A DNA stretch of 55,203 nt from Gemmatimonadota bacterium (lineage in GTDB: Bacteria; Gemmatimonadota; Gemmatimonadetes; Gemmatimonadales; GWC2-71-9), in contig QHUY01000047.1 in NCBI GenBank assembly GCA_003223415.1, forward strand, positions 1 to 55,203. The letters are read 5' to 3'. Below the pieces are notes generated by a model that was given only the letters and a program-made list of their open reading frames with translations, ran no database searches and was not told the origin of the DNA. The translations under genes were made by a program, and so were the position numbers. Shown here in pieces: positions 2,478 through 5,408 of the stretch. Every line of letters starts with the position of its first letter. Position 1 is the stretch's first letter.

Positions 2478-5408
2478 ATGAGACGCCTCGGACTCGTTGT
2501 CGCCGTCACCACCGTCTTCTCCGTGGGATGTACGAAGGATCAGCCGGTGCAGCCCCCGACCACCGGAGGCCCGGCGTTTCTGATTTCGGATGGCACGCAC
2601 AGCAGCGGGAACGCGAACTTCTTTTTCCTCCCACCGCTCGTCCCGGACCCCAGCGGCAGCTCTAACTTCGACGTGGGCACGTTCAACTCCAAGCTCTCGC
2701 CCACGGTGGAAATCTGCCAACTCCACGACGACCCCCGGCAGTTCCCGACCACGGCCTGCGTCGACGGCGCGCCCGTGTTCGGACCCATGCCCATGCCCTT
2801 GGACGGTGAGCAGTACCACCTCAATTGGGATACGAAGGCTTCACCTCTCCAGGACAATCTGTTCTATCGCCTGATTGTGCGTGGCACGCGCCAGAGCAAG
2901 CCGCTCGGCTTCCTGGACCTCGATCCGGTATCGGGGGGGATGAAGAACCTGAAGACCGGGGAAGTCGTGATGTTCCAGGACGGCCGCACGCTGCCGATCA
3001 AGGTGCGCATCGAGGAGGGGGCGTTCGGCTCGACCAACCCGGATCACGTCGAGCAGGTGGTTCCGAGCCACATTACCACGCCGACGGGGACGCTGGACGT
3101 CACCACGACCACGGGCTTCGCCGGCGCGCGGTTCAGCGACGGGTGGCTGCCGAGCGGCATCGACCAGGTAGTGGTCATTATCGAGCGGGTTCCTGTGAAC
3201 GACGGGTCGCAGGGGACCAGTTGCCTCCGGAGCGGCCTCAGCGAACTCGAGGGCTGCTATCGGTTCCGGACTGATCCCGACCTGCACGGCCTTGGCCCCG
3301 ACAACACAGACCTGACATTTCGGGTGAACGTGATCGCTGGAGTGTGCTTCGAGATGTCGATACACACCGACGCACCATTCCAGCTGCACCGGCGGGAGGA
3401 GGATTCGGAGGGCACGCCGACAGGGGAGACGGTCGCCCTCCCGGACGTGGAAGCCCCCTTCCTTACGTGCGACAGGTTCGCGGCGACGGGGCCGGTGTTG
3501 ACACTGCGAGACCTGAGGTCAGGCCGCGTCCGGGAGTTTGCACGTGCCGGCTGGCATACGCTCGTGCGCGGCATCGGACGCCTCGTCACGCCGCAAGCGT
3601 TGCACGCCGTCGACCTCGGGGCCGGCGGCAGCACGGACGGCTTCAGCCGCTTCGGCTACGCCCGGGCGGGGACGATGACCAAGACCGCGGGGGACAATCA
3701 GATCGCCAGCAGCGGGACGAGAGCGCCCGTGGATCCCACGGTCTGCTTGACGACCTCACATCCTTCTCCCGCAAACCTCGTGGGCGAGCCGGTGACGTTC
3801 ACCGTTACAGCCGGGGGTGGGGCCCTGGACAGCGCTGTCGTCCATACGCATGCGGATGGGTGCGCACACGACGGATGGGTGCTCGGGTCGAGCACGACCC
3901 CTGGCGGGCAGTCGCTGAGCGCGAGCGCCGCTGTCAGCAACAGTCCCGCAACGTTCACCGCAACCGGAACACCCGTCGTGGCGGTCTTCACGGGGCGGCC
4001 GACCACTACGACGGCTGGCCAAGGCGTGCCGGTCCAGGTCACGGTGGAGAACGCCAACGGTGACACGATTAAGAACTTCCTCGGCAGCGTGACCGTCACC
4101 ATCGGCAGCAACCCGAGCGGGGGCACCCTCTCCGGCACCACCACGGTGAGCCTGGTTTCGGGAACGGCGACATTTGGCGACCTGGGCATCGCCCAGGTGG
4201 GCAATGGGTACACTCTCGTGGCCACCGCCACGAGTGCCAACGGCGTGACGCCGACTCTCGCCACGAGCGCGCCGTTCGACATCAATGCGCAGCCGGTCCA
4301 CATCGGCGTCAACAGCTTCGTCATCGACCTACGCGCCGGTATGATCGCGAACGCGTCGGTCGTTAACGGGGGCGGGTTCTACAAGGGCACGCAGGTGATG
4401 TTCGCCTCCGGCTTCGCCTACGGCACGAGAGGGAGCGATGTCCTCGTGGGCTACAACACGAGCACCGGCGCCTCCCGCTTCGACCTCAGCACGCCGCCCA
4501 CGGTCGTGGGCGCGGATCCGTTGCATACCACGGTTCCGCTGACGCCAAGGTTTGCGGGCACCGGCATCCCTGGGGTGGGTGTTACGCAGGAGTCCTTCGC
4601 CTTCTCCAGCGCTCCCGACGCGGATTACGTGTTGCTCAAGTACACGCTGAGGAACCCAGGTGGGGCTGCGGTGAATGGCGTCTTCGCCGGTTTCGTCGCC
4701 GACATGGATCTGCTGTACTCGGGAAGCGCTGGCGATGACAACGCGTCCTTCAATGCGGACCTGGGGGTGACCGTAGCCACCGAGACGAACCTGGCGTCCT
4801 TCCCGCAGGTCACTGGAATCGTGCCGATCACGAGCGCGGACGCGGCGCTCGACTACATCGGCTACATCAACGTCGGGTCGCGCCCGAGGATTGGGCCCAC
4901 CGACCCGCCGACCCTCGCGGGGTACTTCGGGTTCTTGAGCAGTGGCATCGTGAACCCCTTGCCCCTCGGCCCGAGCGATATCCGGCAGGTCATCGGGTTC
5001 GGTCCCTTCTCGATTCCCGCCGGCGGCTCGCAGGTCGTCTGGTTCGCGCTGGTTGGTGGAGACAACAGCAGCGCCTTCGGGGCGAATGTCACGGCCGCTC
5101 GTGCCAAGGCAGCGGCGCTCAGCTCCTCTTTGCTACAGTTCGCGTGTAGCCTTGAGCCGACCTTGCACTCGATCACCGGCCTGGTGTCGACCTCCATCCA
5201 GTTCGTGAACCAGACGACAGGGCCTGTGACTGTGTACTGGCTCGACTACCAGGGACAGCGAGTATTCTACAATACCCTCGCGGCCGGACAGTCCTATGAC
5301 CAGCAGACGTTCCTCACTCATCCCTGGGTGGTGACTGACGCAAGCGGCGCGTGTCTGGGAATCTGGTTGCCCTCTACAGCGCCAGGCACAGCCTTGATCG
5401 GCGGGTGA
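2478..5408 (+). CDS. Large lipoprotein with Ig-like domain and C-terminal pVHL-like beta domain
   Basis: ATG 2478 is preferred to the track's GTG 2460. It has AGGAG six bases upstream and gives a lipoprotein signal, MRRLGLVVAVTTVFSVGC, with lipobox SVGC, so a lipid-anchored exported protein of 976 residues is predicted. Residues ~75-445 are the module shared with the upstream kelch gene. Residues ~500-602 form an Ig-like domain (ENANGDTIKNFLGSVTVTI). Residues ~605-880 are an unrecognised region without repeats. Residues ~890-976 align without gaps over the central part to the human pVHL beta domain: WLDYQGQRVFYNTL against WLNFDGEPQPYPTL, and TFLTHPW against SYRGHLW. Most of the hydroxyproline-pocket residues are kept (see findings). 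The ligand in bacteria is unknown. Domain calls are from memory of the families, not a search. Confidence 0.88.
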   Translation: MRRLGLVVAVTTVFSVGCTKDQPVQPPTTGGPAFLISDGTHSSGNANFFFLPPLVPDPSGSSNFDVGTFNSKLSPTVEICQLHDDPRQFPTTACVDGAPVFGPMPMPLDGEQYHLNWDTKASPLQDNLFYRLIVRGTRQSKPLGFLDLDPVSGGMKNLKTGEVVMFQDGRTLPIKVRIEEGAFGSTNPDHVEQVVPSHITTPTGTLDVTTTTGFAGARFSDGWLPSGIDQVVVIIERVPVNDGSQGTSCLRSGLSELEGCYRFRTDPDLHGLGPDNTDLTFRVNVIAGVCFEMSIHTDAPFQLHRREEDSEGTPTGETVALPDVEAPFLTCDRFAATGPVLTLRDLRSGRVREFARAGWHTLVRGIGRLVTPQALHAVDLGAGGSTDGFSRFGYARAGTMTKTAGDNQIASSGTRAPVDPTVCLTTSHPSPANLVGEPVTFTVTAGGGALDSAVVHTHADGCAHDGWVLGSSTTPGGQSLSASAAVSNSPATFTATGTPVVAVFTGRPTTTTAGQGVPVQVTVENANGDTIKNFLGSVTVTIGSNPSGGTLSGTTTVSLVSGTATFGDLGIAQVGNGYTLVATATSANGVTPTLATSAPFDINAQPVHIGVNSFVIDLRAGMIANASVVNGGGFYKGTQVMFASGFAYGTRGSDVLVGYNTSTGASRFDLSTPPTVVGADPLHTTVPLTPRFAGTGIPGVGVTQESFAFSSAPDADYVLLKYTLRNPGGAAVNGVFAGFVADMDLLYSGSAGDDNASFNADLGVTVATETNLASFPQVTGIVPITSADAALDYIGYINVGSRPRIGPTDPPTLAGYFGFLSSGIVNPLPLGPSDIRQVIGFGPFSIPAGGSQVVWFALVGGDNSSAFGANVTAARAKAAALSSSLLQFACSLEPTLHSITGLVSTSIQFVNQTTGPVTVYWLDYQGQRVFYNTLAAGQSYDQQTFLTHPWVVTDASGACLGIWLPSTAPGTALIGG

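Follow-up and report, generated by a model that had tools for sequence, protein, structure and literature searches.

A VHL beta domain that keeps the hydroxyproline-pocket residues at the C-terminus of a predicted bacterial lipoprotein

Introduction

VHL is known almost only as a subunit of the animal oxygen-sensing ligase. In human pVHL, five pocket residues (W88, Y98, S111, H115, and W117) bury hydroxyproline; S111 and H115 bond to the hydroxyl group and Y98 to the carbonyl (PMC6105673). Human pVHL also binds hydroxyproline in capped form (PDB 4awj). Drosophila VHL, which acts in the same pathway, carries a threonine (T64) at the S111 position (PMC4195687). The published core of the pVHL beta domain is an aromatic tetrahedron of F76, W117, F119, and F136, and thus includes W117 alone of the five pocket residues (PMC3688787).

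Bacterial VHL domains are present in Pfam, where PF01847 already covers bacterial proteins, but they are barely described. One secreted protein with a VHL beta domain, Litorilituus sediminis EMK97_00595, is discussed as a tumor suppressor in a published report (PMC9002001). In our search of the open-access literature, no paper dealt with bacterial VHL proteins as a family, with their pocket, or with their ligand, and NCBIfam holds no model covering these proteins. Here, we describe a VHL beta domain encoded in a 55,203-nucleotide stretch of DNA from a Gemmatimonadota bacterium (contig QHUY01000047.1), referred to below as the window, together with its bacterial relatives.

Results

A predicted lipoprotein with an Ig-like stalk and an exchanged C-terminal module

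The domain resides in a protein of 976 residues encoded on the forward strand (2478–5408), with an ATG start codon at 2478. From N- to C-terminus, the translation comprises a lipoprotein-type signal peptide, an N-terminal module, an Ig-like stalk, a middle region, and the VHL beta domain; a Pfam scan of the entire protein detected no family other than VHL (PF01847). Read by eye, the signal peptide MRRLGLVVAVTTVFSVGC (2478–2531, +), with a lipobox-like SVGC motif ending at Cys18, fits the type II class, but the serine at position −3 renders the lipobox only approximate. The lipoprotein context put forward in the first-pass annotation of the window holds as a prediction.

The gene lies downstream of a tandem paralogue on the same strand (16–2196), which is cut by the start of the contig. 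BLASTP alignment with this neighbor spans the N-terminal module and first Ig-like domain (2706–3992, +) at 64% identity (294 of 461 residues). Beyond this common portion, the paralogue has neither the middle region nor the VHL tip, and ends in a Kelch beta-propeller instead. This arrangement suggests domain exchange between neighboring lipoprotein genes, in which the stalk is common and the tip is swapped.

The C-terminal residues form a genuine VHL beta domain

Residues 888–976 of the protein (5139–5405, +) had been proposed to contain a pVHL-like beta domain aligning without gaps through the core. Profile searches confirm both points. PF01847 matched the whole protein with an E value of 5.8e-6 (26.7 bits) and its last 99 residues alone with an E value of 1.8e-7 (31.5 bits), scores that exceed the Pfam gathering score of 21; the match covers residues 898–956 (5169–5345, +), and the domain as a whole extends to about the stop codon. 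When the window domain was searched singly against the PDB with phmmer, only pVHL chains rose above noise (best E 0.012), in an alignment of 64 residues with zero gaps. Because one sequence alone constitutes weak evidence, we turned to a profile made exclusively of bacterial sequences (11 relatives). This profile retrieved human pVHL at an E value of 2.3e-10, again without gaps.

Structure prediction, which the first-pass annotation had proposed as a check, agrees with these searches. An AlphaFold model of the window domain reached a pLDDT of 75 and a pTM of 0.68, and in a structure search with this model all 50 PDB matches listed were pVHL, with TM scores of about 0.80 by query length and rmsd values from 1.8 Å. 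We treat the predicted fold as supporting evidence only, since it was computed from three sequences (the window domain plus a pair of relatives), pLDDT was 55–59 in four of five models, and AlphaFold2 has seen pVHL. Taken together, the last ~85 residues are a VHL beta domain homologous to that of pVHL. The VHL alpha domain with its elongin C (BC) box is absent: the protein ends about 20 residues past the PF01847 match, and no other Pfam family was detected there.

The hydroxyproline pocket is the most conserved part of the bacterial family

The first-pass annotation had further held that the pVHL residues contacting hydroxyproline correspond to W, Y, T, H, and W at identical spacing, and both the phmmer and the bacterial-only profile alignments bear this out. 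The equivalents on the forward strand are W921 for W88 (5238–5240; W in 26 of 28 aligned relatives), Y931 for Y98 (5268–5270; Y in 23 of 28), T944 for S111 (5307–5309; T in 25 and S in 2 of 28), H948 for H115 (5319–5321; H in 27 of 28, the top-conserved column), and W950 for W117, which serves pVHL in both pocket and core (5325–5327; W in 26 of 28). This is exactly the set found in the fly protein and, given that Drosophila VHL acts in the same pathway with threonine at this position, the Ser-to-Thr change can be regarded as harmless.

Ranking the columns of the 28-row alignment by information placed the equivalents of H115, W117, and W88 as the top three, followed by Y98 in 10th place, the Phe/Tyr column equivalent to Y112 in 12th, and S111 in 15th. 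A complete pocket (W, Y, S/T, H, W) is kept in 22 of 27 bacterial relatives, a count made on the same alignment minus one near-duplicate, and is lost in part or wholly in the other five. Random sets of five columns rarely reached this level of conservation (permutation p = 3e-5). With pocket columns so much more conserved than random column sets, a chance origin of the correspondence is excluded.

Conservation does not extend to all functional or structural positions of pVHL. At the position of core residue F119, 24 of 28 relatives have I, L, or V; with F119 replaced while the pocket is kept, conservation tracks the pocket more closely than it tracks the core. Contacts to the HIF backbone (N67, R69, and H110), along with I109, are likewise not conserved among the bacterial relatives in this alignment, so that any reading of hydroxyproline by the pocket would involve a different peptide context. 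One relative (L011:1495–2397) has none of the five pocket residues and retains both of the cysteines described below, and thus represents a natural negative control.

A cysteine pair accompanies export

Two cysteines without counterpart in pVHL, C890 (5145–5147, +) and C959 (5352–5354, +; C in 25 of 28 relatives), occupy the fourth and fifth most conserved columns. They probably form a disulfide that would tie the first strand to the strand following the HPW motif. Nearly all bacterial relatives possess an N-terminal export signal, and several consist of a signal peptide and a VHL domain only. The sole member without an export signal, from cyanobacterium LEGE 07170 (L006), is apparently cytosolic, and both cysteines are missing from it.

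Distribution and domain partners of bacterial VHL domains

The bacterial relatives gathered here, 27 distinct members from at least three groups, come from the window's own order, the phylum that includes a filamentous cyanobacterium, the class to which Hyphomicrobium belongs, and plasmids of cyanobacteria and Jannaschia. Within our three main samples the domain is rare and patchy, occurring in 5 of 250 genomes of the window's order, 10 of 292 of the cyanobacterial phylum, and 8 of 337 of the Hyphomicrobium class. The viral contigs and phage genomes that we searched contained no relative of the window protein.

The same assembly encodes a second VHL lipoprotein (L002, on contig C241 of 4,580 bases) that, like the one in the window, adjoins tyrA-aroA. 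Identity between the two loci amounts to 76% for the VHL domain, 73% for TyrA, and 78% for AroA; outside the VHL domain, the two lipoproteins are about 30% identical or unrelated. Contig C241 probably derives from a related species within the bin and not from a duplication. A third PF01847 match in this genome (E 0.24) falls in a glycogen-phosphorylase-like protein and was set aside as chance.

Elsewhere the domain is joined to varied partners. Four exported alphaproteobacterial proteins (L030, L031, L032, and L037) combine it with the mannan-binding MVL motif (PF12151), and others pair it with a CAP domain, RCC1 repeats, or Big_1 Ig domains. Such fusion contexts are those of surface binding or sensing. 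In a further locus (L004:43–1734), a CHAT (caspase-like) domain scoring below the Pfam cut-off, a transmembrane helix, and a VHL domain lie in one frame, and the N-terminal half looks frame-shifted; from its sequence, this protein is possibly a transmembrane sensor-protease.

Potential sources of hydroxyproline

The first-pass annotation had also suggested looking for prolyl hydroxylases in the genome. In the window's own assembly, which is 97.5% complete, we detected no match to the prolyl 4-hydroxylase-type oxygenase families PF13640 and PF13661, and no collagen-like protein match. Any hydroxyproline would therefore come from outside, and an internal PHD-VHL circuit is unlikely. Across the family, 7 of 22 VHL genomes encode collagen-like proteins, a count made without matched controls that supports no link.

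In the cyanobacterial phylum, PF13640 oxygenases occur in 9 of 10 VHL-positive genomes versus 125 of 282 others (one-sided p = 0.005), and at least four copies are found in 5 of 10 versus 15 of 282 (p = 2e-4). This co-occurrence is confounded by lineage: the five multi-copy genomes have one VHL protein type in common and are close to a single lineage. VHL genomes of the Hyphomicrobium class and the window's order show no excess of such oxygenases. Moreover, no obvious export signal is present on the oxygenases seen in VHL-carrying genomes of the cyanobacterial phylum, in contrast to the exported VHL proteins. Two of this phylum's genomes (G436 and G422) contain non-exported oxygenases of this type in tandem clusters of two or three (L045, L052, L053, and L054), and also carry VHL lipoproteins and collagen-like proteins.

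Discussion

We propose that the window protein is a binding device in which the Ig-like stalk of an exported lipoprotein would hold a VHL-type beta domain off the cell. Its aromatic pocket and Thr/His hydroxyl-binding pair, presumably arranged as in pVHL, would be preserved for binding an extracellular ligand. The likeliest such ligand is a residue resembling 4-hydroxyproline that is carried by a foreign protein or glycoprotein, with the hydroxyproline-rich glycoproteins of plant or algal cell walls and animal collagen as candidates. The domain would then serve as a binding, adhesion, or sensing tip, and not in an oxygen-sensing or degradation circuit. A hydroxylated proline is a plausible ligand given that conservation among the bacterial relatives peaks at the pocket, and the MVL fusions fit with recognition of glycoproteins. 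For the window protein, an external ligand is the better reading, since its genome has no oxygenase of its own, the cyanobacterial association comes from near one lineage, and no excess is seen elsewhere. We place the probability that the window domain binds hydroxyproline in an adhesion-like role at roughly 45%. A wider proposal, which we advance more tentatively, is that dispersed, exported, disulfide-stabilized VHL-type domains read hydroxyproline on extracellular eukaryotic proteins, or on collagen-like proteins made by the bacteria themselves. Such a role in adhesion or sensing would be independent of animal oxygen sensing and might predate it.

The evidence also bears on other explanations. 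Conceivably, the VHL fold and its conserved pocket accommodate some other extracellular ligand, for example a sugar, a glycan-linked residue, or another small ring compound, and hydroxyproline binding is a later eukaryotic use. The changes at the peptide-backbone contacts and I109 beside a conserved pocket, the fusions to mannan-binding motifs, and the lack of prolyl-hydroxylase-type enzymes in the window's genome would all be consistent with such a ligand. Nevertheless, the exact Trp-Tyr-Thr/Ser-His-Trp set, including the pair that bonds the hydroxyl, has been kept over a great distance, for which the same chemistry is the simplest account, and we consider a different ligand less likely. It is more doubtful still that the residues are kept for folding alone, with the domain serving structurally to cap or space the tip of an Ig-like stalk. 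The length of the stalk in the window protein and the place of W117 in the core tetrahedron lend this idea some credence, but W88, Y98, S111, and H115 lie outside the published core set (PMC3688787), core F119 is lost while the pocket persists, and several members comprise only a signal peptide and the domain. The same paper presents a Y98H model virtually identical to wild type, although it also reports that Y98H impairs stability (PMC3688787).

A bacterial counterpart of the PHD-VHL system, devoted to oxygen sensing or protein turnover, strikes us as highly improbable. The oxygenase excess in the cyanobacterial phylum, in both presence and copy number, is what such a system might produce; however, those multi-copy genomes look like one lineage, no comparable excess occurs in the alphaproteobacterial class or the window's order, the enzymes and the VHL proteins differ in their export signals, and the elongin-binding alpha domain is absent.

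An exported bacterial branch in which the hydroxyproline site is the best-conserved feature would supply a set of candidate hydroxyproline-binding domains and bears on where the VHL domain originated. It could also yield small hydroxyproline binders, stabilized by a disulfide, for the study of collagen and plant cell walls.

Comparison with known systems places the window protein within this branch. The Litorilituus report, in its accessible part, concerns a single secreted protein and does not treat pocket conservation, the cysteine pair, or a bacterial family (PMC9002001). Plasmid-encoded relatives from Calothrix sp. NIES-4101 and Nostoc sp. C057 resemble the window domain more directly, with 47–53% identity over the domain, a full pocket, and the cysteine pair; unlike the window protein, they consist of a signal-peptide-like N-terminus and the domain only, and are annotated as hypothetical. 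The Nostoc strain has a hornwort as its host. Drosophila dVHL has five identical pocket residues, with Thr where human pVHL has Ser111 (PMC4195687), but is an intracellular ubiquitin-ligase subunit with an alpha domain. With human pVHL, the bacterial domain has in common its fold, an ungapped register from W88 to W117, and the pocket set W/Y/(S or T)/H/W; it differs in being exported to an extracytoplasmic location, in its extra cysteine pair, in having no alpha domain, and in the replacement of the residues with which pVHL contacts the HIF backbone.
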